NCBI GenBank assembly: GCA_029550925.1
Contig: JAKPGL010000073.1
Coordinates: 1-45,775, forward strand
DNA from: Planctomycetota bacterium
GTDB taxonomy: Bacteria; Planctomycetota; Planctomycetia; Pirellulales; Thermoguttaceae
Direction of reading: 5' to 3'
DNA: 45,775 bases
Shown: positions 2,863-15,097 of the stretch, piece after piece
Layout of the letters: each line of letters opens with the position of its first letter
Position numbering within the stretch: position 1 is the first letter of the stretch
Program-made: the position numbers and the translations under genes
The notes under the pieces: generated by a model
Databases searched by the model: none
What the model was told of the DNA's origin: nothing
What the model saw: only the letters and a program-made list of their open reading frames with translations

Positions 2863-3828
2863 TTAGGGAATCTTGAATGAGTCCAAAAGTTGGATGGCCC
2901 GGCGAATGGGTTGTAAAGCGGCGTCGCCGCCGTCGGGGAACTCGTCGAATTTGGCGGTTTTCTGAAAGTTCGCCAACGCTTGGCGTCCGGAGTTCGTCTG
3001 ATCCATCTCAAGAAGTGCCTGCCGTACTGCCGCCGCGGCGGCAGGGTCCATATCTCGCCGTTGGCAGACGACATGCCGAGGTACAAAGGGTGTGTATCGT
3101 ATCACCATAAATTGCTCAGGATAAGACGCCGTAAATTCCAAAAACTTCTTTTCATTGATCGCCCCGGCCGCTGCTTTGTCTCGTAAAACCCAAAAAAACA
3201 CGTTCTCCTCATCGCCGGCGAAGACGTAGCCCACCTTGTCCTCGGGTACAGGATCGGACGCCTCCTTGACCGGTTGCAATCGCAGACCTGCTTCCGCCAG
3301 GGCGCCCAGGGGCAATAAATAGCCGCTCGTCGAAGTAGGGTCGTCCAAGGCAATCACACGGCCGCTTAATTGCTTTACCTCGGTCAAGCCGCTTTTCGTC
3401 CGGACGAAGATCACTCCTCGATACTCGGCTTCTCCGCCCTTCCACCGTCGGAGGATAGGCGTCGCCCCGCAAAGCGTGCAGACCCGCGCCACCGGCCAAG
3501 CGCTGTCGATATAAAGGTCCACTTCGCCTTTTTGCATCCGTTGGGCCATTTCCTCCACAGACCTGCAGACCACCATGTCGCAACCCGCCGCTCCATACGG
3601 CCGCAAGGCTTCCTCCAGATAATTTTTCAAAGGTTGAAACGTTGAGATTTCTTTCTTAGGATATTTTGAAACCGAGCCGACTCTCAAAATCCATCCTGTC
3701 TGAGGGGAAGAACACGTTGGTTCTGCCGCGGGAGTCGCGAGAGGTTCGGTCCATCCGCTGGACTGCCCGCAACCAGCAGCCAACACTCCCATCATGAACA
3801 GCACGAACCCAACCTGGACAGATTTCAT
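2863..3828 (-). CDS. PhnD/SsuA-type substrate-binding lipoprotein
   Basis: Predicted exported lipoprotein of 321 residues in the phosphate/phosphonate (PhnD, transferrin-fold) binding family. The signal peptide ends in lipobox LAAGC near residue 20. The mature part shows family landmarks: an RVGSVSKYPKKE start, a region EMAQRMQKGEVDLYIDSAWP (about 95-115), and DDPTSTSGYLLP (about 165-175), which resembles the ligand-contact segment of PhnD proteins. No ABC ATPase or permease lies beside it. Instead it is followed directly by a sensor kinase, so a role in signal reception rather than import is inferred. The mature domain carries several cysteines, including a CTLC motif, which is unusual for this fold. 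The ligand cannot be told from sequence. Confidence 0.85.
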   Translation of the reverse strand: MKSVQVGFVLFMMGVLAAGCGQSSGWTEPLATPAAEPTCSSPQTGWILRVGSVSKYPKKEISTFQPLKNYLEEALRPYGAAGCDMVVCRSVEEMAQRMQKGEVDLYIDSAWPVARVCTLCGATPILRRWKGGEAEYRGVIFVRTKSGLTEVKQLSGRVIALDDPTSTSGYLLPLGALAEAGLRLQPVKEASDPVPEDKVGYVFAGDEENVFFWVLRDKAAAGAINEKKFLEFTASYPEQFMVIRYTPFVPRHVVCQRRDMDPAAAAAVRQALLEMDQTNSGRQALANFQKTAKFDEFPDGGDAALQPIRRAIQLLDSFKIP

Positions 3829-4251
3829 GGCGTCGGTCTGTCTCGAAAAACAAACAAGGAAACTTCTTCCGCTTTTTTCTGCCTCCTCTTCGTTTTGGCG
3901 GCCCGATGACCAACTGGTCGTAGGACCGTCTGGACGGAGAGGGTTCCCTACGTCGGCTGAGGGAGAACCAGGGGCTAGTGGACAGGTTTGGTAACAGCCT
4001 TACAGACTGCGTTACCAAGGCCCTCTAAAAAATAGATTAAAAGAAAGCTCCACGCGCTGCCGGGAAAGCGGCGATTCTGCCCCTGCCAGAAATCTTTTTA
4101 CCGCCAAAGAGGGGCCTTCTTGAAACCATTTCTCCAGAGAAAAGACTGGTATCTGGAAAAGGCACTTTTTTCAACTGGTTGCCCATTATCAGGTTTCGCA
4201 AACCGCCCCCCGGAGAGGGGGGTTCGCTGAAAATAATTTTTCTACCCCCAA
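3829..4251. other. Divergent intergenic region with inverted repeats
   Basis: No credible gene. The stretch separates the binding-protein/kinase pair (leftward) from the HprK-related cluster (rightward). It holds a perfect inverted repeat TTGGTAAC at 3988-3995 with GTTACCAA at 4011-4018, a small CCGTC-TG-GACGG hairpin near 3927-3938, and a GC hairpin (CCCCCC, loop GGAGA, GGGGGG) near 4206-4222. Short ORFs here look like chance readings. Confidence 0.6.
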
Positions 4252-4276
4252 TTGCTAGCATTCTTCATCCTAGCAA
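4252..4276. promoter_or_regulatory. Inverted repeat, candidate operator
   Basis: TTGCTAG (4252-4258) and CTAGCAA (4270-4276) form a perfect 7-bp inverted repeat with an 11-base spacer. It ends two bases before a TATAAT box and about 40 bases before the start codon of the small Tat-like protein. Position and symmetry fit a dimeric repressor or activator site. No regulator gene is adjacent. Confidence 0.5.
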
Positions 4277-4278
4277 AG

Positions 4279-4284
4279 TATAAT
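4279..4284 (+). promoter_or_regulatory. Candidate -10 box (TATAAT)
   Basis: A perfect TATAAT sits 30 bases upstream of the ATG at 4315. The best -35 candidate, TTGCTA at 4252-4257, would be 21 bases away, longer than usual and inside the inverted repeat. The promoter may therefore depend on an activator or use a poor -35. Confidence 0.45.
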
Positions 4285-4314
4285 ACTCTAAGATTCTCTA
4301 AGGAGTTTTCAGCA

Positions 4315-4659
4315 ATGAGCGAGACGCCCCGAAGCTTTTCTATCGCGAACGCCCAGGGCCATTCGCCTGCCGCCGGGGAGCAAGGTTCGCTTTCGGCCGA
4401 AGAGCGTCGCCGCAAAAGCCGACGGGGGCTATTTCGCGCCGTGCTTTCTGGCGCCCCATTGATCCTCACGTTGCCCAATCGCTCGGCCTGGGGCCAAACG
4501 GGCGGCAATGGAACTAACGTCACCCCCATCAGCGCCGCCAAAAAAGCTGGTCTTTCGGAAGAGCAGATCGAACAGCTCCGCCAACAGCTCCAACAGGCCG
4601 AAAAAACGGGCGGGGCCGGTTGGCTCGAAGACCCTCCGAGCGATCTTCCCGAACCGTAA
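4315..4659 (+). CDS. Small protein with Tat-signal-like segment, first gene of HprK-related cluster
   Basis: A 114-residue protein of unknown function. The ATG at 4315 is chosen over an in-frame upstream start at 4252 because AAGGAG lies at 4300-4304, about ten bases ahead, and because the candidate -10 box lies between the two starts. Residues 1-35 are hydrophilic. Then comes a basic RRRKSRRGLFR stretch and a hydrophobic run ending in NRSAWGQ, which looks like a twin-arginine signal set unusually far inside. After the likely cleavage point come a Gly/Asn-rich spacer, a predicted helix rich in Glu and Gln, a TGGAGW motif and an acidic proline tail. Its place directly ahead of the PqqD-like, kinase and nucleotidyltransferase genes suggests it could be the substrate they modify. 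That is inference; I do not recognise it as a named family. Confidence 0.75.
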   Translation: MSETPRSFSIANAQGHSPAAGEQGSLSAEERRRKSRRGLFRAVLSGAPLILTLPNRSAWGQTGGNGTNVTPISAAKKAGLSEEQIEQLRQQLQQAEKTGGAGWLEDPPSDLPEP

Positions 4660-4674
4660 GGCGGCTGGTGGGTC

Positions 4675-4977
4675 ATGGACTGGGCTTCCGCTCCACGATG
4701 GCGTTTACTGACTGCTTCGTCTTTGAAGTTCCACGCCTGGCCGGGGGAAGAATTTGTTCTGGTCTTTCACTCCGCCAGTGGGGATACGCATCTTGTGGAC
4801 GCTCTTTCCGCTGAGGTGCTCCGACGGTTGCAGGACGGTCCCCTAACCGAAGAAACGTTGTGGCGGCGTCTGTTGGAGCAGACCGGTTTCTCGGCAGAGG
4901 AGTTCCCTCTGGATCGGCTGCAACCGATTCTCACCCAGTTGGAACAGTTGTCTTTGGTTGAACGGGCGACGGCGTGA
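4675..4977 (+). CDS. PqqD-like protein of the HPr-rel-A type
   Basis: A 100-residue protein. The pattern is short beta strands, then THLVDALSAEVLRRLQDGP, then a helical C-terminus of the type TEETLWRRLLEQ followed by a second helix rich in leucine. This is the winged-helix layout of PqqD, the peptide chaperone that holds a leader peptide for modifying enzymes. I remember a TIGRFAM describing PqqD relatives paired with HprK-related kinase A, and this gene has that partner. It begins 15 bases after the small protein and overlaps the kinase start by four bases (GTGA), so co-translation is likely. It could bind the upstream protein as its client. No radical SAM enzyme is present. Confidence 0.75.
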   Translation: MDWASAPRWRLLTASSLKFHAWPGEEFVLVFHSASGDTHLVDALSAEVLRRLQDGPLTEETLWRRLLEQTGFSAEEFPLDRLQPILTQLEQLSLVERATA

Positions 4978-5945
4978 TCGTATCACAATGTTCTCTGAAT
5001 GCACTTCGTCATCAACTTCGCTGGGGAGGTGTTTGCATCCGCACCGGCCCCTTCCTGTGTCGTATTCAATCTCCGTTGCCCGAGATCGCCCGCGCCTTGG
5101 CCGACTCCTACGCTCACTTCCCCGTGATCCCGGAGGCCCCTTTCGCCGACATCCATCTCCGAGTCCTGCCGGGGCGGGGATTGCGCCGCTGGATTCGCCC
5201 CCAGGTCTTCTGCCAATGCGACACCGAGGTCCCCTTTAATCCGCATCCACGGCGATTAGCCCCTGCCATGCTGGAATGGGGCCTGAACTGGGCCGTCGCT
5301 AATCTGGCCCACTGGTATCTGATGATCCATGCTGCCGTGTTGGAACGAGGGGGACGCTGTTTGGTCCTGTCAGCCCTAGCCGAGTCCGGAAAAAGCACCC
5401 TTTGTGCGGCGTTGGCGTTACGGGGTTGGCGGGTGTTTTCCGACGAAATCGCACTGATTCGGTTGCCCGACAGCCAGTTGGTTCCCCTGGCCCGGCCCAT
5501 TTGCCTGAAAGGGGCCTCGATCGAGCTGATCCGGCAGCGGGACTGCGAGGGCCTTGTCGGTCCTACTTGGCCTGATCCGGTCCGGGGCGGGATTGCCCTG
5601 GTTCGGCCGCGTCGAGAGACGGTAGCCGGGATGGAGACGCCGGCGCCGGTCGGCTGGGTGGTGTTTCCGAAGTTCGAACCCGGTTGTCCGACCCAATTCA
5701 GCCCCCTGCCCAAAGCCTTGGCCTTCCTCCGCTTGGCCGACAATTCCTTTAATTACAGTCTGCTGGGGACCACCGGCTTTCAGACCCTGGCCGCCCTGCT
5801 CGACCAAGCCCAGGGGTGCTATAAATTCCGATATAGCAAGTTGGACGAGGCCGTCCTGTGGTTCGAACGCCTTATGGACCGCCCGCCTGAATGTTCTGCC
5901 AGTGTTTCTTCGTCCGAGTGGCCCGAAATGTCTGAGCCGTCCTAA
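4974..5945 (+). CDS. HprK-related kinase A
   Basis: A 323-residue cytosolic protein related to HPr serine kinase. The P-loop reads SALAESGKST around residues 136-145, followed by the Walker-B-like segment VFSDEIALI around 155-163; in true HprK this region has SDD. Residues 1-130 are a separate N-terminal part. The classical HPr interaction region is not obvious and no HPr gene is nearby, so the substrate is probably not HPr. The start is a GTG overlapping the stop of the PqqD-like gene. The 3' end overlaps the next start by one base (TAATG). In lasso-peptide clusters, HprK-like kinases phosphorylate the precursor peptide, and by analogy the small protein at 4315 is the first candidate substrate. 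Confidence 0.8.
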   Translation: MIVSQCSLNALRHQLRWGGVCIRTGPFLCRIQSPLPEIARALADSYAHFPVIPEAPFADIHLRVLPGRGLRRWIRPQVFCQCDTEVPFNPHPRRLAPAMLEWGLNWAVANLAHWYLMIHAAVLERGGRCLVLSALAESGKSTLCAALALRGWRVFSDEIALIRLPDSQLVPLARPICLKGASIELIRQRDCEGLVGPTWPDPVRGGIALVRPRRETVAGMETPAPVGWVVFPKFEPGCPTQFSPLPKALAFLRLADNSFNYSLLGTTGFQTLAALLDQAQGCYKFRYSKLDEAVLWFERLMDRPPECSASVSSSEWPEMSEPS

Positions 5946-7039
5946 TGTCCTACGCCCCTTCCGCCAATCGTCCATTGCTTCAGGTCCTTCGAGAGCCTGA
6001 GCAAATGACCCATTTGGCCTTGGCCGACTGGGACCTATTGGTTCGGCAGGCCCGTTGCGCTCGGCTCTTAGGTCGGCTTGGATATCAGGCAGAACAGTTG
6101 GGCGTGGAGCGAATCCCCGAGTCGGTTCGCCCTCATCTGGAAGCCGCCTCTCGAACGGCCGAGAAACATCGCACGATGATGCACTGGGAAATCCATCAGG
6201 TCCGGCAGGTGCTCGGGCCGGTTACCCAGAAAATCGTACTGCTCAAGGGGGCGGCGTATGTGGCCGCCGGTTTGCCGACCGCTCAGGGTCGGCTCTTTTC
6301 CGATATGGACATTCTGGTCCCCAAGGCCGACTTGGCCCAAGTGGAACAGGCCCTGTTGGCCGCCGGCTGGCAACCCATGAAGCTCCATCCCTACGACCAA
6401 CGGTATTATCGGGCCTGGATGCACGAACTGCCGCCGTTAGAACATCGCACCAGGCAGACCACTCTGGATGTGCATCATACGATCCTGCCGGAAACCGGCC
6501 GACTGCACCCGGACCCCCAGAAACTTTTGGCCGACGCCCGCCCACTGCCCGAACCGCCGCTTTATGTCCTCAGCCCCACAGACATGCTGCTGCATAGCGC
6601 CGCCCACCTTTTTCAAGACGGCGAAATTGGCGGCGCACTGCGAGACTTGGTGGATATGGCCGATCTGGTCCGATGCTTTGGCGCAGAACCAGAATTTTGG
6701 CCGAACCTGCTTCACCGCGCCCGGCAGTTGGAGTTGGGCCGACCGCTCTGGTACGCCTTGGCCCATCTCGAATGGTGTTTCCCGGGGCTTACGCCGAAAG
6801 AAGTTTTGCAACAGGCCCAGTCCGAGCGTCCGCCCTGGCCCATCCGTCCGCTCATGCACCTGCTGATACGATGGGCCATCCAGCCAGAACTCCCAGAACA
6901 CTCCACCTGGCTTGGGCAGACGGCCCGTTGGTTGCTTTATGTGCGGTCCCATTGGCTCCGGATGCCGCCCCGACTGCTACTGCCCCATCTGGTCCACAAA
7001 GCCCTCCGCCGCTGGCGCCACGAGGAAGAGGAAAAATAG
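5945..7039 (+). CDS. Nucleotidyltransferase family protein (NTP_transf_5-like)
   Basis: A 364-residue protein with the landmarks of the 'uncharacterised nucleotidyltransferase' family: VLLKGAAY near residue 99, then GRLFSDMDILVP near 117-128, where the two aspartates would bind the metal of the transferred nucleotide. The remainder is helical, with a His-rich patch (LLHSAAHLF near 218) typical of the family. Such proteins occur in lasso-peptide and HprK-related clusters, but the reaction here is not known to me. It is translationally coupled to the kinase by a TAATG junction, making it the fourth gene of the unit. Plausible reactions are nucleotidylation of a protein or peptide, or transfer onto a phosphate set by the kinase; both are guesses. 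Confidence 0.8.
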   Translation: MSYAPSANRPLLQVLREPEQMTHLALADWDLLVRQARCARLLGRLGYQAEQLGVERIPESVRPHLEAASRTAEKHRTMMHWEIHQVRQVLGPVTQKIVLLKGAAYVAAGLPTAQGRLFSDMDILVPKADLAQVEQALLAAGWQPMKLHPYDQRYYRAWMHELPPLEHRTRQTTLDVHHTILPETGRLHPDPQKLLADARPLPEPPLYVLSPTDMLLHSAAHLFQDGEIGGALRDLVDMADLVRCFGAEPEFWPNLLHRARQLELGRPLWYALAHLEWCFPGLTPKEVLQQAQSERPPWPIRPLMHLLIRWAIQPELPEHSTWLGQTARWLLYVRSHWLRMPPRLLLPHLVHKALRRWRHEEEEK

Positions 7040-7254
7040 TACTTGGCTCCATGGGATTCTCAGAGGAAGTAACCGCTCCCAGGGGGCCGGGATTGTAACT
7101 TTGGCTATCTAGCCTGAGTGAATAGCAGCCGGGACAGAGGGTGTTCCTCAGATCGCAAAATGGGCCGAAAAACGGGCATGTCTCCGGACGGTGAACGGTT
7201 ACCAGAGGAATAAGTTCCTAAAATGGGAAGCCTATTGCCGCCCCAGACGCACCC

Positions 7255-7296
7255 CACCCCGCAAAAATCTCTGGGGTGAAGGACTACGAATCCCCT
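7255..7296. terminator. Paired hairpins between convergent genes
   Basis: CACCCC (7255-7260) pairs with GGGGTG (7273-7278). A second small stem, GAAGG (7278-7282) with CCTTC (7292-7296), follows at once. They lie between the nucleotidyltransferase and the convergent Gly/Pro-rich lipoprotein gene. No long T tract is present, so termination is only a guess from position. Confidence 0.35.
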
Positions 7297-7312
7297 TCAA
7301 GCGGCGGAATCG

Positions 7313-9955
7313 TTACGGCTTTTCTTTAGGAGTTTGGGCGGCTTTAGGAGCTTGGCTGGGGTCCTGGCTGGGGTCGCGCATTTCAATCACCAAAATCTGA
7401 ACCACCAACGGTTCTTCGACCTCTTTTTCTTTAGCCCCCGGACCCCGACCAGGAGTTCTTCCGGGCATCCCCACGCCTACTCCGGGTGTTCCCCCGCTGG
7501 TTTGGCCCCGGGTGATCACGACGTCGATCGAACGGAGCAGTTCTTCCGATCGGCCCGGTTGGATGGCGTCCAGCCAGACCATCTGCTGTGATTCATAAAT
7601 CCGGCGGGTTTTGAGTTGTCGTTTGTAGGCGTCGAGCACTTTGCTTGGCTTTTCCTTGTGTTCCAGCCGGACGTAGTGGATGAGGGTCGGCGCGAGGTTT
7701 ACCCCAGAAATCTTTTTGCCCACCTCGCCCGGCAATACCGCTCGATAGCTGGGCTTGGGCGTTAGTTGCGGCTCATGGAGTTGCAGGGGGAGGTCTTGGA
7801 TCGGGGTGGTAAAGTCAGGCCGACGCCGCTGTTGCCGGGCTAATTCGATCTCCCGCAGACCCGCCTGCTGGAACCGCTGACAGAGCGCCAGCACCAGGTC
7901 CCCTGACATCCGAAGCCAATCTTCTTCGGTTTGTTCTTTCTGTTGTTTTTCTCGGACAGCGGAGGGAAGCGTCTTGCCTGCCGGAGTGGTATATCCCGGC
8001 CCGCCCACTCCCGGAGAGCCTAAACCAGGCATAGTCCCCGATTTGAACGCCTTGGCCCGCGGCAACTGTTTCAGGCAGACCACCATCGCCGGGTCGGAGA
8101 CCCACTGATTTGGAAACCCTGCCTTTTGAAGTCCGGCTGGGCCGTCATACCACCGGGCCTTCAGGACCTCGTATATCTGATGCCGAATCGGGGCCGTCGG
8201 TACGGTGGCCGCCCAGACCACCATCGGCGCTTGCTCCTCCAGGGAGTCGATCTTTCCCAAAGCAACCGTCAAAAAGGTGTGGATTTCTGGCCCCCAAACA
8301 GTTGCCGCTGTCCGATAGGGCAACTCGGGGTCCGTCGGCATTCCCCCAACGCCCGGCATTCCCGGCAGACCCGGACCGGGACCATATCCGCCGGGCATGC
8401 CAGGGGCCAGTTCTCCTTCCGGACCTCTAGGCATGGAAGGAATCCCGCCCGGCGCTGCCGGAATCGCTCCAGGCCCCACCCCGGGCATTTCCGGTCCGAA
8501 GCCCGGGCCTCCTCCAGGACCGATTCCGGGTCCTATGCCCGGCGACATCCCCGGACCGCCAGAAACTGCACCGGTCGGCACGCCCAAGACTAGCGCCAAC
8601 GACTCGGCGCTATATTTCATGAAATACTCCAAAAGTTTTCGGCGGGTTTCTTCCGGAGTGTCCGGCGCTTGGAGAAATAGCTTCTGTGCCCGCAGATTGG
8701 CCGGGTGCGGCTCGTACAAAAATGCGCCCAACCGCTGGACGACCTCCAACGGTACCTTGGGATCGACAAGATATTGGGCCAGTTTTTCCCGCACGGCGGC
8801 CGAGCCGACTTTTTTTACCAACTCCAACGTCGTTTGCTGCATCCAGGCGGCGGTTACTTGTTCACCGACGCCCGGGCCAAAGCCCGGCCCATACCCCGGA
8901 CCACCCGGCGGCATCTCCAGACCTGGCCTACCCGGGCCGATCGGCCCCCCGGGACCGCCCGGCATTCCACCAGGCCCACTAGGCTTTTCTTTGGGCAGGG
9001 GCGGACGAATTTTTTCCGGCATGAGCAACACGGCCAACAGCATCTGTTCATTTTCCGGGGTCGGGATCACTGCCAAGGCATTGAGCGCCCGTTCCACAGC
9101 CAGCCGATCCATGCCCGTGTCGATCTTGCCCGCAAGAATCTTGCCGATGATCTCCCGGGCCTCTTTGGTATTATTGAGCACCAAGGCATAGATGGCCATT
9201 TCGAGGGCTTGTTGCGAGAGTTGGATCGCTTTTTGTTGGCCGCCTGGTCCCATCATCCCCGGCATTCCGGGCGAAAACCCGGGGCCTTCCGACGGGATTT
9301 GTCCGGGGGGAGGAACCGCTCCGGGCGGTACCCCAGGCGGCGCCCCTGGTGGAACCCCCGGCCCTCCGGGCGGGCCCGACTTCTGTTCCGGTTTCGGCGT
9401 CGGGGGAACCTCTACCTTGATCAATTCTTCCAACATCAAGGCGGCCGACGGTTTACCGACAAACTTCTGAGCAAAATGCTGAAGGGCGTTGACCAATTTC
9501 GGGTCCCCCTCGGCCTTGGCGGTGAAATAATCCTCCCGCTTCCAATCTTCTACCTTTTCGGGGCGTTTAGGTTTTTCTTGGGGTTTTTGTTCCCCGGTGG
9601 GTTGTCCGGGCGGCTGACCCGGCTGACCGGGTGGTTGTTCTGCACCCGGCGGCTGAGGCCCTCCGGGCGGCGGCGTCTCGGCCGATGGAGGTGGGGGCGG
9701 CGGCGGCGACGGCTTTTTCTTCTCCCCGCCTCCACAACCAACCACCAACATCACCCCTATCACCACACCCAAGCCGATCCCGGTCTGCCAGAGCCAGCCT
9801 GTCCTGCCTTTTTTCCTCCCGGCCTCCTGGTGGAGATAAGCAACTTCCCTCATCGACCAGCTATTCCGAACCACCTTCTTTTCCTTTGTCTCCATCATGG
9901 CGTCCATCGGATAAAAACAAGCCCATCGAAACAGAACCGTCCTTCTTCTATTCAT
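7313..9955 (-). CDS. Long Gly/Pro-rich membrane or lipoprotein with helical repeat blocks
   Basis: An 880-residue protein of unknown function. The ATG at 9955 is preferred over an in-frame start at 10042 because AAGGAG precedes it by seven bases. A single hydrophobic segment ends in VMLVVGCGGGEKKK, a good lipobox, but it sits about 60-75 residues in; either a later start is used or the segment is a membrane anchor. Next is a run of eight prolines and a PG-rich linker. Then helical blocks alternate with collagen-like Gly/Pro stretches (GPGGMPGGPGG, GPGIGPGGGPGFGP and similar). The helical blocks, for example around EMAIYALVLNNTKEAREII, look like HEAT-type repeats. The C-terminal domain (about 690-860) contains INLAPTLIHYVRLEHK-like strands without Gly/Pro repeats. 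It resembles planctomycete surface or periplasmic scaffold proteins. Function unknown. Confidence 0.75.
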   Translation of the reverse strand: MNRRRTVLFRWACFYPMDAMMETKEKKVVRNSWSMREVAYLHQEAGRKKGRTGWLWQTGIGLGVVIGVMLVVGCGGGEKKKPSPPPPPPPSAETPPPGGPQPPGAEQPPGQPGQPPGQPTGEQKPQEKPKRPEKVEDWKREDYFTAKAEGDPKLVNALQHFAQKFVGKPSAALMLEELIKVEVPPTPKPEQKSGPPGGPGVPPGAPPGVPPGAVPPPGQIPSEGPGFSPGMPGMMGPGGQQKAIQLSQQALEMAIYALVLNNTKEAREIIGKILAGKIDTGMDRLAVERALNALAVIPTPENEQMLLAVLLMPEKIRPPLPKEKPSGPGGMPGGPGGPIGPGRPGLEMPPGGPGYGPGFGPGVGEQVTAAWMQQTTLELVKKVGSAAVREKLAQYLVDPKVPLEVVQRLGAFLYEPHPANLRAQKLFLQAPDTPEETRRKLLEYFMKYSAESLALVLGVPTGAVSGGPGMSPGIGPGIGPGGGPGFGPEMPGVGPGAIPAAPGGIPSMPRGPEGELAPGMPGGYGPGPGLPGMPGVGGMPTDPELPYRTAATVWGPEIHTFLTVALGKIDSLEEQAPMVVWAATVPTAPIRHQIYEVLKARWYDGPAGLQKAGFPNQWVSDPAMVVCLKQLPRAKAFKSGTMPGLGSPGVGGPGYTTPAGKTLPSAVREKQQKEQTEEDWLRMSGDLVLALCQRFQQAGLREIELARQQRRRPDFTTPIQDLPLQLHEPQLTPKPSYRAVLPGEVGKKISGVNLAPTLIHYVRLEHKEKPSKVLDAYKRQLKTRRIYESQQMVWLDAIQPGRSEELLRSIDVVITRGQTSGGTPGVGVGMPGRTPGRGPGAKEKEVEEPLVVQILVIEMRDPSQDPSQAPKAAQTPKEKP

Positions 9956-10193
9956 GGTGTTGCTCCTTGCAACTTGCCCAAAGAATATCCGTGCAAGGAT
10001 GGAGAAGCAATCGCCCACCACGTGGAAAGACCCTTGATACAAAGATAACCTTAGTATCTCATAATTTTGCGAAAAATGCTATCCGGTGGAAGGCTTGCGG
10101 GGCTTTTCTTTCCGCAGGCGGATGGGTATGGTGGATGTTTTATGACTGAGATACACCCTCAGACATCGTTTTCCCCATGGCCAGGTGTGGATC

Positions 10194-11147
10194 ATGCTCC
10201 GTTGGCGGTTGGTGTTAGGCGCTGGAGTGATTGTTCTTGTGGTCCTCTTATGTTGGCTGGACCACATAGCCCCCCTTCCAGGCGTTGCTCTTTTCCCCCT
10301 GGCGGCGCTAATCAGTGTGCTTGCCACGGGCGAATTGTTCGCCCTGGCCGACACGGCGCGGGGAGAGCCGCCGGCTGCTGCTCGCTGGTCTGCCTGGCCT
10401 GTTTATGTGGGCAATGGTGCGATGCTGTTGGCGGTCTGGGGACCGGTGCTTTGGAACGCCTTTTCTGATTCCGAGGGCCTTTCGGGTACTTCGGCTACTG
10501 AACTGGCTGGGCCGCATTGTCTGCCACCGGCCCAGACGGCGTTGCTTTTGACCCTGGCGGCCGCTCTAATCCTGGCCATGTTGGAGGAAATCCGGCGGTT
10601 TGAAGGGCCGGGGGGGATCACGGCTCGGTTGGGGGTGGCGAGTTTGGGACTTTTATATGGGGGGCTGCTTTTGAGTTTTTTAGGGCTGTTGCGGATCGGC
10701 TATGGGATCGGCGCCTTGGCCTCGCTGGTGATCGTCGTCAAAATGGCCGACACCGGAGCATATTTCGTCGGACATCTGATCGGTCGGCGTAAATTGGCCC
10801 CTCGGCTTAGTCCCGGCAAAACCGTCGAGGGGACGATCGGCGGGCTTTTGTGGGGCTGGGCATCGGCCTGGGCCGTGTTTACGTGGCTGACTCCGGCTCT
10901 GGCGGTCTCTGGCGAAGGGGCTCACTCCGGTGGATGCCCTTGGTGGGGCTGGACCAGCTACGGCCTGGTGCTCAGTCTAGTCGGCCTGGGCGGCGATCTG
11001 GCCGAATCGCTCCTGAAACGAGACGCCCAGCGCAAAGACTCCAGCCGATGGATGCCAGGCTTCGGCGGCGTGTTGGACCTGATGGATTCCCTGCTCTGGA
11101 CCGCCCCGGTCGCCTATCTCTGGTGGCATTTAGGTTGGGTGGTTTAG
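10194..11147 (+). CDS. cdsA: Phosphatidate cytidylyltransferase
   Basis: Integral inner-membrane enzyme making CDP-diacylglycerol from phosphatidate and CTP, the branch point of phospholipid synthesis. The protein has about 317 residues and many hydrophobic segments. The family signature is recognisable at the C-terminus: ESLLKRDAQRKDSSRWMPGFGGVLDLMDS. Compared with the usual pattern, the His of PGHGG is Phe and the Arg of DR is Leu, variants I associate with planctomycete CdsA. KMADTGAYFVGHLIGRRKLAP and SPGKTVEGTIGG, also typical, are present about 100 residues earlier. Start choice is uncertain: ATG at 10194, or GTG at 10185, neither with a strong Shine-Dalgarno. Confidence 0.88.
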   Translation: MLRWRLVLGAGVIVLVVLLCWLDHIAPLPGVALFPLAALISVLATGELFALADTARGEPPAAARWSAWPVYVGNGAMLLAVWGPVLWNAFSDSEGLSGTSATELAGPHCLPPAQTALLLTLAAALILAMLEEIRRFEGPGGITARLGVASLGLLYGGLLLSFLGLLRIGYGIGALASLVIVVKMADTGAYFVGHLIGRRKLAPRLSPGKTVEGTIGGLLWGWASAWAVFTWLTPALAVSGEGAHSGGCPWWGWTSYGLVLSLVGLGGDLAESLLKRDAQRKDSSRWMPGFGGVLDLMDSLLWTAPVAYLWWHLGWVV

Positions 11148-11704
11148 ACTTTTCGTAGGAAGATGGGAAAAGTTCTTTTCCGTCGTCCTTTTCTCCTTGT
11201 TCTGCATTGGTATCTACACATTTTGGAGTGCGGCGGGAAGGCGGCGTTAACCGCCCACAGACTGTTTTGTTTTAAAACCTTTCTTCATCCGGGAACTCTC
11301 CTGGAGAAGCTTTGTGTTAAGAAAGCAGCCTTTACGCACCTAGCGGCCATTTGCCGCCGCATTCCAAAGAGCATCTCTCCTCGGCAGCGCCGAGTTTTGC
11401 AGATACCAATGCCCAAAGGGGGGGGACGGCTATTCGCTCTTCAATTTCCGGCTTGTTTCAAGCGGGGCAATTGTGTATTTCTACCTCCCTATGGATAAAC
11501 GGGCTATTTAGCTCAGGGAAATGCACCAAATAGGGGATATTTGAAGTCCCCCAAAAGGTTATAATTTCCCCCCAACGGATTATTCTTAATAAACCCAATG
11601 GGGTATTTACAAGCCTTGTCGTGGATTTTCTTTTCTTCGGATAGAGCCCCCTGGTGGGATGGTGGGGTACTTGGGTAGCCGGATCCAGGGTAAATGGGCG
11701 ACTT
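11148..11704. other. Intergenic region before bamA
   Basis: About 550 bases with no convincing gene. Small hairpins are present: GGCGG-cgttaa-CCGCC at 11240-11255 and GCGGC-CATTT-GCCGC at 11343-11357. The 111-codon ORF starting at 11163 has no recognisable features and is probably chance. Promoters for bamA presumably lie here but no clear -35/-10 pair was seen. Confidence 0.4.
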
Positions 11705-14700
11705 ATGAAAAGGACTATCCCCCCTGGAGGGGTAAAAAATAGACGATGCCCTCCCCGTGCAACCAGCCGGGAGCTCGGAGACCGGGCCTTCTGTGGCTGG
11801 ACAACGGTTGTTGGCGGATGCCTCCTGCTTTTGTGTTGGGTGGTAATAGAGGTGTGGGAGGAAACGTGGGGTAGCCAACCACCGGGGAACTCTTTGTTGT
11901 CAGGCCAGTCTTTTGCTTCCGAACCGGCGGGTTTGGATGGCCCCTCCTTGCCGGAGGCGCCTTGGGTAGAACCTGCACCGGAAGGATTTCTTCCGGAAGG
12001 CCCCCAACAGGCCGGTCGCCGACTTACGCCCCCTTCTGCCAGCGGTTCTCCGCTTCGGGGTAACACGGCATCTCCAACTGGCCAGCGGTTTCCCAACGTC
12101 GGCCTCGATTCCGATGCCCTTTCTGGAGGGGCTGACTCTGGGGAAATGGTGGTTGAAGTTCGGGTCGTGGGTCGGGAGCATGTGTCCTGGAGCAAGCTGG
12201 CGCCGCTGATCCGTACTCGTGCGGGCCGACCTTTGGATCTGGAGCTGATCGAGGAGGATGTCCGACGATTGAATCGGTCTCGGCTGTTTGTCAGCGTAAA
12301 GACCTGGACACAGTCGGCGCCGGGCGGTCGGGTGGTGATTTTCGAGGTGGTCGAACGGCCTGTGTTGCAGTATGTGAAGTTTGTCGGCAATGAGAAGGTG
12401 CGTAAAAAGGTGCTGGCCGAAAAGGCCGGTCTGAAACCCGGCGACGCCTTGGACCCGTTTGCCGTGGAAGAAGGCCGACGTAAGATCGAAGACTATTATC
12501 GTTCCCATGGGTTTTCCAACGCCCGGGTAACGATCATCGAAGGCAATCGGACGGAGGACAAAGGGGCCATCTATCTAGTGAACGAAGGGAAAAAACAGCG
12601 GATTTTGTGGACCCGGTTTGAAGGGAACACCGTCGCCACCGACGCCCGGCTGCGGACCCAGATTCATTCGAAGCCTGGGTTTTTATGGATCATTCGCGGC
12701 CAAGTGGATCGCAAAGAGATCGAAGAGGACATCAATCGCTTGAAAGCGTATTACGCCAGCCTGGGCTATTTCAATGCGAAGATTGGTCGAGAGATCGAGT
12801 ATGACAACGATAAAAATTGGATCGTCCTGACGTTTATCATCGACGAAGGCCCCCGATACAAGGTGCGAGAGATTCGCTTTGTCGGCAATCAGCGGTTTTC
12901 GGAGCAGGAGCTGGCCGAGGCCATCAAACTGAAACAGGGGCAGTATTTCAACCAGGCGCAACTTCAGAGCGATACGGCCGCCTTGCAGGAGAAATATGGG
13001 GCGATCGGCTATGTCTTTGCCGACATCAAGCCGGACATCCGCTATCTGCCCGAACCGGGCCAGGCCGATCTGGTCTATGAAATCAAGGAAGGGGACCGGT
13101 ATCAGGTGGGCCGGATCGATGTGAAGATCGGCTCCGAAGAGGTATCGCCGCACACGAAGATCAGTACCGTGCTGAATCGACTTTCCTTAGCTCCGGGGGA
13201 CGTGGTGGATACGCGAGAGCTTCGGGCCAGTGAACGGCGACTGCGGGCTTCGGGGCTATTTTTGATCGATCCGGTACGCAATATCCAGCCGAAGATCGTC
13301 TTCAGCCCGCCGGATGTGTCGGATGAAGAAGTGGAGACCGCCCAGCCGAGGCGACCCGCCGTGCGCGGCCAAAGCCCCTCCCCTTCGACCTCGCCGACGG
13401 AGGTCCGGGGCCAATCGCCTGTTTGGGGAGAGGAAGGCGGCCAGATTGTGCCTCCTCTACCGGAAAACCGGCCGTTGCCAGGGATGGATCGGTTTTACCA
13501 AATTGGCCCCGGCCAGCCGACTGCCGGTGGAATGACCTCGCCGAACGCTTCTGCGCCGAGGACTTCGGGAAGCGGGTACAGCACCGGTACCGCATCGGCA
13601 GGCGCATCGGGCGCTGGATATGGCGGCGGCTGGGTGGCAGGAGGTTCCACACCGACCGCTTCCTCCCCCCCTGTGCCCAGCTCGAATCCTTCTGCCGGCG
13701 GCGTTTTTGCTAACGGGGGGGCAGTGGGACCAGAGGCTGCGGGACAGAGCTTCGTTTCAGACCCCGCCGCAGGTTATCCTACTATACCACCACCGATCAG
13801 CCCACAGGGCAATCCTCCTCAAAACAGGGCGTCTGGCCCTTACGTTGCCGAGTCGGGGCCATTTGGCGGATTTTTCCGGCGGTGGATTGGCCAACCCTTT
13901 TTAGGCGGCGGAACACCGAGTGAAAACTACGGCGCACCCAGCGGGGGGATTCTGGGCGGGCAGGGTGGATTGTTCTCCGGATTGGCCCCCGGCCAAGAAC
14001 TGCCCCAAGAGCCGCTCCGGCCTTTGCCAATTCAGATTATCACCGAAGAATCCCGCACTGGCCGAATCATGCTCGGCGTGGGCGTTACCTCGGATGCTGG
14101 GGTAGTCGGCTCGGTCATTGTCGATGAACAAAACTTCGACCTCTTCCGGTTCCCGCACAGTTGGGAGGAAATCCGCAACGGCACCGCCTGGCGTGGGGCG
14201 GGTCAACGCTTCCGACTGGAAGCCGTCCCGGGAACTCAAGTCCATCGTTATGTCGTCAGTTTCACCGAACCGTATTTTCTGGATACCGACGTGAGCGCCG
14301 GCGTGAGCGGCTATTTCTTCAAGCGGATTTACCGGGATTGGCGGGAAGAACGGTTGGGCGGCACGACGCGGCTGGGCTATCAGTTTCGACCTGATTTCAT
14401 GGCCAATTTTACCTTCCGAGGTGAAAAGGTTACCCTGTTCGATCCGAGCGTCCCTGCCGGGTTGGTACCAGACTTGGACGACGCTCTGGGCGCCCATGAG
14501 CTATTCGGTTTTCGGCTTGGATTGGCCTACGACACCCGAGACAACGCCTTTTTACCCACCGAGGGGCATTACATCGACTTTGGCTTCGAGCAGGTGGTCG
14601 GTTCGTTCCAATATCCGCGGGGCGATGTGGAGATGCGGAAGTATTTTACGTTGCACCAGCGGGCGGACGGCTCCGGCCGGCATGTGCTGAGTGTGGGGAT

Positions 14701-15097
14701 GAGCTTTGCGGTAACGGGCAAAGATACACCCATCTATGACCACTATTTTGCAGGCGGGTTTTCTACGTTGCGCGGCTTCGACTATCGAGGCGCCGGGCCC
14801 CACGTTCATGGAGTCAGCGTCGGCGGCCATATGCAACTGCTGGCCTCGGCCCAATATCTGTTCCCGATCACCGCGGACGATATGCTGCGGGGCGTCGTCT
14901 TTTGCGACGCCGGCACGGTGGAAGAGGATTATACACTTCGGGATGAAAACTTCCGGGTGTCGTTGGGGTTCGGCCTGAGGGTGCTGGTACCGGCGATGGG
15001 ACCGGCGCCGCTGGCGTTCGACTTTGCTTGGCCAGTTACCAAGGCCGACAACGATGTTACCGAAGTCTTCAGCTTCTTCATTGGCATCGGCCGGTAA
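11705..15097 (+). CDS. bamA: Outer-membrane protein assembly factor BamA with long linker
   Basis: Outer-membrane beta-barrel protein that inserts other barrels. The ATG at 11705 gives 1130 residues; a GTG at 11654 would add 17. A hydrophobic segment near residues 35-55 serves as signal or anchor. Residues about 147-527 form POTRA domains, probably five, with typical strands such as VVEVRVVG, LQYVKFVGNEKV, KVREIRFVGNQRFSE and RYQVGRIDVKIG. Residues about 532-773 are a low-complexity linker rich in Pro, Ser, Gly and Ala, not normal for BamA. The barrel fills about 778-1130 and holds the conserved loop-6 motif LRGFDYRGAGP near 1020. The last residues are FFIGIGR, so the usual terminal aromatic is not at the very end. 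Length well above the common 750-850 residues is due to the linker and an extra 100-residue disordered N-terminus. Confidence 0.9.
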   Translation: MKRTIPPGGVKNRRCPPRATSRELGDRAFCGWTTVVGGCLLLLCWVVIEVWEETWGSQPPGNSLLSGQSFASEPAGLDGPSLPEAPWVEPAPEGFLPEGPQQAGRRLTPPSASGSPLRGNTASPTGQRFPNVGLDSDALSGGADSGEMVVEVRVVGREHVSWSKLAPLIRTRAGRPLDLELIEEDVRRLNRSRLFVSVKTWTQSAPGGRVVIFEVVERPVLQYVKFVGNEKVRKKVLAEKAGLKPGDALDPFAVEEGRRKIEDYYRSHGFSNARVTIIEGNRTEDKGAIYLVNEGKKQRILWTRFEGNTVATDARLRTQIHSKPGFLWIIRGQVDRKEIEEDINRLKAYYASLGYFNAKIGREIEYDNDKNWIVLTFIIDEGPRYKVREIRFVGNQRFSEQELAEAIKLKQGQYFNQAQLQSDTAALQEKYGAIGYVFADIKPDIRYLPEPGQADLVYEIKEGDRYQVGRIDVKIGSEEVSPHTKISTVLNRLSLAPGDVVDTRELRASERRLRASGLFLIDPVRNIQPKIVFSPPDVSDEEVETAQPRRPAVRGQSPSPSTSPTEVRGQSPVWGEEGGQIVPPLPENRPLPGMDRFYQIGPGQPTAGGMTSPNASAPRTSGSGYSTGTASAGASGAGYGGGWVAGGSTPTASSPPVPSSNPSAGGVFANGGAVGPEAAGQSFVSDPAAGYPTIPPPISPQGNPPQNRASGPYVAESGPFGGFFRRWIGQPFLGGGTPSENYGAPSGGILGGQGGLFSGLAPGQELPQEPLRPLPIQIITEESRTGRIMLGVGVTSDAGVVGSVIVDEQNFDLFRFPHSWEEIRNGTAWRGAGQRFRLEAVPGTQVHRYVVSFTEPYFLDTDVSAGVSGYFFKRIYRDWREERLGGTTRLGYQFRPDFMANFTFRGEKVTLFDPSVPAGLVPDLDDALGAHELFGFRLGLAYDTRDNAFLPTEGHYIDFGFEQVVGSFQYPRGDVEMRKYFTLHQRADGSGRHVLSVGMSFAVTGKDTPIYDHYFAGGFSTLRGFDYRGAGPHVHGVSVGGHMQLLASAQYLFPITADDMLRGVVFCDAGTVEEDYTLRDENFRVSLGFGLRVLVPAMGPAPLAFDFAWPVTKADNDVTEVFSFFIGIGR

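Follow-up and report, generated by a model that had tools for sequence, protein, structure and literature searches.

A small twin-arginine protein accompanies the HPr-rel-A kinase and is a candidate for its target

What do the enzymes of the HPr-rel-A system, already named by NCBI, act on? The question is raised by a contig of 45,775 nucleotides from a Planctomycetota bacterium of the Thermoguttaceae (JAKPGL010000073.1, assembly GCA_029550925.1), the whole of which is called the window hereafter. On its forward strand, a PqqD-like peptide chaperone of 100 amino acids (4675-4977), an HprK-related kinase A of 323 amino acids with a GTG start (4974-5945), and a nucleotidyltransferase of 364 amino acids (5945-7039) follow a small gene (4315-4659), which encodes a protein of 114 amino acids with a signal resembling those of the twin-arginine translocation (Tat) pathway. 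The open reading frame (ORF) calls bear out this layout as originally predicted, with overlaps of 4 bases between the PqqD-like and kinase genes and of 1 base between the kinase and nucleotidyltransferase genes, and the NCBIfam model titles agree with the predicted name of the system for the PqqD protein. The HPr-rel-A system occurs in planctomycetes and in several groups of Proteobacteria. Because a fourth gene travels with the trio and one unusual signal sequence is common to its products, the small, apparently exported partner is likely the target that the three enzymes decorate before export. The partner gene is an added member lying outside the Pfam and NCBIfam models; with it, an orphan enzyme system gains a concrete candidate target, and its chemistry becomes testable.

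Co-occurrence of the small gene and the kinase

Kinase alignment A3 was searched against a species-level genome collection and found at least 222 relatives, the best 80 of which were kept as a sample. Together with seven loci from a genome search (the window's own included), they make up 87 kinase loci, 85 of which are distinct (L033/L051 and L002/L073 are duplicate pairs). The partner was found by profile in 84 of the 87 loci, lying upstream of the kinase gene in 83 of them and downstream in one (L068), while the same kind of twin-arginine protein was recognized by eye in L081, L085, and L091, which brings the count to 87/87. A PqqD homologue is present in all 87 loci and a nucleotidyltransferase homologue in 82; among the five loci lacking the latter, only L124 has room for one. 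As for gene order, L107 has tandem partner genes (4113-4838 and 4961-5545), and in L068 the partner gene (8112-8732) lies 3′ of the trio and is followed by a second nucleotidyltransferase gene (from 10052).

Is the small gene also found in the relatives of the window's genome? In a search of 60 relatives, copies with 61-62% identity were found in the same genus (L032 and L033), and its family yielded weaker copies (L034, E 1.2e-6; L036, E 0.004), all of them preceding the PqqD and kinase genes; the remaining matches, up to E 1, were taken as noise. The differences from the congeneric genome L033 are distributed 30/30/55 by codon position over 110 codons, and thus the small gene looks coding. 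Distant members of the phylum (L002 and L003) have a small twin-arginine gene at the same place. By eye or by weak profile matches, such a gene was also recognized before the kinase gene in five more loci of the window's class (L165 and L167-L170) and in plasmid copies of Vibrio alfacsensis (L173) and Sphingomonas parapaucimobilis (L174). In both plasmid records the partner is annotated as a "hypothetical protein", and the NCBI annotation uses HPr-rel-A names for the kinase and PqqD. The proteobacterial kinase of L096 has matches in four plasmids. A viral or phage origin was rejected, since viral contigs had no match to any of six peptide patterns from the window kinase and phages had none to the L096 kinase.

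The association was assessed in 300 genomes of the order to which the genome of L096 (Noviherbaspirillum) belongs, 50 of which have the kinase. At E<=1e-5, the partner profile A4 matched 45 of the 300 genomes, namely 43 of the 50 kinase genomes versus 2 of the 250 kinase-free genomes (Fisher 4e-42), the negatives being soft as at most 10 candidates were scored per genome. In 42 kinase genomes, the partner found by profile lies beside the kinase gene on the same strand, 36 at 331-780 bases upstream and 6 at 1205-1579 bases downstream. The 43rd match (G446) is an exported domain within a 1597-residue frame on a different contig, and the two kinase-free matches likewise cover the exported domain alone, G487 in a frame of 1046 residues and G563 in one of 1301. 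Inspection of the other eight kinase genomes, G446 included, revealed a twin-arginine protein gene ending 329-458 bases before the kinase gene. These eight partners have differing exported parts, and a partner model trained on the loci scores them from 4e-8 to 0.02.

Thirty genomes with the kinase and 30 lacking it were scanned with a leader-only model (27 positions), at most 140 candidates being scored. At E<=1e-4, it matched 22/30 kinase genomes, in all cases at the kinase locus, versus 0/30 kinase-free genomes, and two further kinase-locus matches were obtained at 2e-4 and 4e-4. Thus, the leader mostly stands apart from the other Tat-like signals within this order. When the planctomycete rows were removed from the leader model, the small gene still came top of the 999 ORFs of the window (E 8.4e-5; the next, 0.35), and L003, L032, L034, L036, L165, L167, and L168 were also found. 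In summary, the predicted co-variation of the small upstream gene with the trio is strongly positive, with whole-genome counts agreeing with the loci (84 by profile and three by eye), and the gene is conserved beside the trio in other genomes.

A common leader and variable exported parts

What is common to the partners? In the window protein, the leader K34-G60 (KSRRGLFRAVLSGAPLILTLPNRSAWG; 4414-4494, forward strand) has the features of a Tat substrate: a twin arginine, a hydrophobic stretch with P48 and T52-L53, and an A-x-A-like end (AWG). The presumed exported tail Q61-P114 (4495-4656, forward strand; cleavage site placed by eye) starts with a Gly/Thr/Ser-rich part and continues into a Glu/Gln-rich charged part. 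The window's genome has one TatC, encoded on another contig. The small protein itself matched no Pfam or NCBIfam family (best E 0.061 and 0.11, respectively).

Alignment A4 consists of 77 of the 84 profile-found partners (the seven genome-search loci were left out) and the window protein, 78 in total, while alignments A5 and A8 comprise 43 and 54 of these loci. L055 is a profile match with an unassigned start and hence lies outside A4. The twin arginine is present in 78/78 aligned partners, L45 in 69, S47 in 67, and T44 in 63. Most proteobacterial partners have a Cys residue and a Ser ladder after the signal (C55 in 74, S59 in 73, and S63 in 69 of the 78). The motif C-x(2,3)-S-x3-S was counted in 82 of the 84 proteins, leaving out the duplicates L033 and L002, and it occurs in 59/82 exported starts; in 1000 shuffles the mean was 4.3 and the maximum 12. 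The tail of the window protein has neither this Cys/Ser motif nor the PGYW domain of most proteobacterial partners. A scan of the 78 partners, with the eight divergent, five window-class, and two plasmid partners outside it, gave no Pfam or NCBIfam family; there were single-member weak matches, the best at E 0.0013.

The exported part is about 13 to 230 residues long and differs by class. It has 100-230 residues in most proteobacterial partners, while cleavage at the AxA-like end, placed by eye, would leave tails of about 13-56 residues in the window's class. The proteobacterial exported domain has PGYW- and AA-LNA-like motifs. In several partners its place is taken by an unrelated part with CWTS-like residues at the end or by a Ser/Gly-rich tail, and the L174 partner has a Pro/Gly-rich exported part. 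The exported domain of L096 was modeled with a predicted local distance difference test score (pLDDT) of 90-98 over residues 81-190. A known fold was rejected for this domain: the best Foldseek match had an E of 4.0, VIA-align gave 0/22 chains at Z>=2, and no PDB sequence matched better than E 0.45.

The PGYW domain recurs in the larger proteins L151-L156, twice in L151. Those of L151, L153, and L155 have SdrD_B, DUF11/DUF7507, cadherin-like, or CshA domains, a company that would fit an extracellular place of the exported domain.

The enzymes, a proposed pathway, and its alternatives

The window kinase passes TIGR04352 (324.7 bits; cut-off, 200). Its AlphaFold model has a pLDDT of 94.1, and Foldseek found PEPCK 1aq2 (E 2.6e-6) and HprK 3tqf (E 5.9e-4). 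The kinase profile reaches HprK chains at E 0.002, with a sequence match only at about residues 117-176, a region that includes the P-loop ALAESGKST with K140 (5373-5399, forward strand). In alignment A7, composed of 54 of the 76 listed kinases and the window kinase, H119, K140, D157, and E158 are invariant in all 55 rows. Would the kinase act on HPr? Since the exported partner is constant, HPr seems the less likely target. In the window's phylum, 75/294 genomes have HprK-like proteins matching TIGR04352 at E<=0.001, three of them above the cut-off; these matches constitute a larger uncharted kinase family.

The nucleotidyltransferase, which I take to be the third member of the HPr-rel-A system, passes PF14907 (NTP_transf_5; 202.7 bits; cut-off, 31.2). 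Its Gly and D-x-D are kept in 81/82 aligned proteins, and the D-x-D residues (D120 and D122; 6302-6310, forward strand) are invariant in 23/23 proteins of a second alignment; no PDB entry matched its profile at E 1 or better. The kinase and the nucleotidyltransferase are encoded in a single open frame of 701-744 residues in L165, L167, and L170, which belong to the window's class. These fusions suggest that the two enzymes probably act in one pathway. The PqqD-like protein passes TIGR04353 (56.1 bits; cut-off, 35) and scores below the cut-off of the PqqD family PF05402 (13.9 bits; cut-off, 23.4).

How might the four gene products work together? I consider it fairly probable that the four genes constitute a single operon that serves to modify a dedicated exported protein, whose leader is read and which is phosphorylated, extended, and exported by Tat. 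I infer the following steps. The twin-arginine signal of the small protein would double as a leader, and the PqqD-like protein, a peptide binder of the RRE (RiPP recognition element) type, RiPPs being ribosomally synthesized and post-translationally modified peptides, would recognize this leader in the cytoplasm and present the protein to the kinase. The kinase would phosphorylate at least one Ser or Thr residue early in the exported part, and the nucleotidyltransferase would then add a nucleotide or a sugar to the phosphate. Finally, Tat would export the product and the signal would be cleaved off. What remains would be a small decorated protein on the cell surface; in Proteobacteria, its setting would probably be one of exopolysaccharide and exosortase.

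A wider proposal is made tentatively. HPr-rel-A may represent a new class of protein modification guided by a leader. In it, the Tat signal would also be the leader for a PqqD binder, and the kinase and the nucleotidyltransferase would assemble a nucleotide or sugar, linked through phosphate, on exported proteins of about 13-230 residues that have no structural relation to one another; these may serve, for example, as an exopolysaccharide primer or anchor in exosortase-bearing bacteria. If this is true, RiPP-style leader logic would reach beyond small peptides to proteins exported by Tat, and phosphate-based protein decoration would be linked to the exosortase/exopolysaccharide world.

Several observations weigh against modification of the partner by the trio, or against the counts behind it. 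Co-occurrence indicates a dedicated partner and is not proof of a modified partner, and conservation of the leader may reflect nothing more than Tat export or anchoring in the membrane. As for Tat itself, the Pfam TAT_signal model matched 1/78 partners at E<=0.01. The Cys/Ser motif is absent in the window protein and the planctomycete partners of the motif count, so that no single target residue is common to all partners; one universal target residue was therefore rejected, the motif being strong in Proteobacteria and absent in the window's genus. L124 has no nucleotidyltransferase in reach. The partner profile was trained iteratively on the same 87 loci that were later scored, some genomes of the A4 and leader-only scans were possibly training genomes, and three of the 87 loci and eight of the 50 genomes rest on reading by eye. 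With the leader-only model, 6/30 kinase genomes gave no kinase-locus match up to E 0.1, while 11/30 kinase-free genomes gave weaker matches from 1.1e-4 to 0.1, and the model without planctomycete rows misses L002, L169, and L170 (E >0.1).

It is conceivable, if rather unlikely, that the partner is an unmodified surface or matrix protein that is exported and co-regulated with the trio, and that the trio phosphorylates a polysaccharide precursor, a lipid carrier, or the like in an exopolysaccharide pathway. The genomic surroundings would suit such a role. Exosortase A scored above the cut-off in 47/50 kinase genomes versus 26/250 kinase-free genomes, relatedness being uncontrolled, so that part of the enrichment may be due to shared ancestry; it shares a contig with the kinase in 20 genomes and lies within 58 kb of it in 15 of the 20. 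The nearest neighbors were surveyed in 81 of 152 frames called by a crude ORF caller, with 25 of the 458 matched families listed; among the matches listed, the XrtA amidotransferase and PrsT models are found, each in 4/81 frames at E<=1e-10. Larger proteins that include the exported domain, two of which come from kinase-free genomes, are also consistent with this explanation. However, a constant leader on unrelated exported parts, one partner per genome in 27/30 genomes, and a PqqD-type binder in 87/87 loci fit a peptide-directed system, and a kinase of metabolites needs none of them.

If the partner is phosphorylated, the mark might be a reversible switch or a means of timing export, with the nucleotidyltransferase regulating the kinase and not the partner; I regard this as improbable. 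HprK enzymes are kinase/phosphorylases, and the one-frame kinase and nucleotidyltransferase of three genomes would fit an internal regulator as well. On the other hand, two reviews (PMC8498205 and PMC9266682) describe PsmN, the one studied analogue, as altering the very peptide that carries the phosphate. It is very improbable that the small gene encodes a true RiPP, the leader of which is removed to yield a short modified core as a secreted signal or antimicrobial. If cleaved at the AxA-like end, planctomycete tails can be short enough for this (about 13-56 residues), but most proteobacterial exported parts are of 100-230 residues, and the one of L096 is predicted with high pLDDT (90-98) over residues 81-190. 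In addition, no ABC exporter appears among the neighbor matches listed, although a C39 peptidase-family model does (4/81), no search having been aimed at a protease or an exporter. Decoration of the partner before export stays the reading that I prefer.

The survey of the 81 frames revealed no dominant neighbor gene, the commonest listed being a PrmC-type methyltransferase (5/81). A lasso-cyclase model was matched 4/81 times among the matches listed, the same number as for the XrtA amidotransferase and asparagine-synthase models, and these matches were taken as the same four proteins. One exosortase-family match was found in the window's genome, on another contig. In the window, a Shine-Dalgarno-like AAGGAG (4300-4305, forward strand) was read directly 9 bases 5′ of the ATG of the small gene, and RNA structure 3′ of the operon was not notable (z-score -0.78). 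According to the Pfam scan, the operon's neighbors are genes for a phosphonate-type binding protein (2863-3828, reverse strand), a CTP_transf_1 cytidylyltransferase (10185-11147, forward strand), and an Omp85/POTRA protein (11654-15097, forward strand); a large ORF rich in proline and glycine (7313-10042, reverse strand) has no Pfam match.

Comparison with known systems

How does the locus compare with systems already described? The window kinase and the adjoining PqqD protein pass both curated NCBIfam cut-offs of the HPr-rel-A system, whereas the partner is outside every Pfam and NCBIfam model. No papers on this system were found by name or by parts in open-licence full text, and the words "kinase", "nucleotidyl", and "HPr" are absent from the main text of two RRE-mining papers. 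PMC10040529 names PqqD, a nucleotidyltransferase, and lasso B2 together; the passage that does so concerns a lasso-type cluster, and the paper was rejected as a description of the present system. Compared with the HprK/PEP carboxykinase fold, the kinase model matches both PEPCK and HprK 3tqf, while the first 115 residues are unmatched.

The locus has the layout of an RRE-dependent RiPP cluster, in which a PqqD/RRE-type protein adjoins a precursor whose leader is conserved and whose core varies. A profile of 24 PqqD proteins has as its best PDB match the lasso B1 protein TbiB1 (5v1u, E 0.0024), and TfuB1 follows at E 0.44 with designed or unrelated chains in between. This match is suggestive of a kinship with lasso B1 proteins and is not proof of it. 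The Pfam scan of eight window proteins (2863-15097) gave neither a lasso cyclase nor a B2 protease; a single Transglut_core3 match (29.2 bits; cut-off, 26) is present in the window's genome, in a 613-amino-acid frame on another contig.

The two reviews (PMC8498205 and PMC9266682) describe HPr-kinase homologues that phosphorylate the C-terminal Ser residue of lasso precursors and, with PsmN, the appearance of one or two hexoses on the phosphate of the lasso peptide. PsmN is possibly a true nucleotidyltransferase, with a host glycosyltransferase finishing the reaction (PMC9266682). According to these reviews, the lasso systems of paeninodin (PadeK/ThcoK) and pseudomycoidin (PsmK/PsmN) have the same kinds of enzymes as the window, namely an HPr-kinase homologue, a nucleotidyltransferase, and a B1/PqqD-type protein with a leader. 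By eye, H119, K140, and D157 of the window kinase can be placed on the first three residues of the His-Lys-Asp-Asp set given there for lasso kinases, whereas the last Asp corresponds to E158, which is Glu in 55/55 kinases. The lasso enzymes work on a short lasso precursor, whereas the partner here is a Tat-type protein. The interpretation as originally given is partly supported: the predicted co-variation holds, and the parallel with the tailoring of lasso peptides by a kinase and a nucleotidyltransferase is based on the reviews, on three of the four active-site residues, and on the weak match between PqqD and B1.

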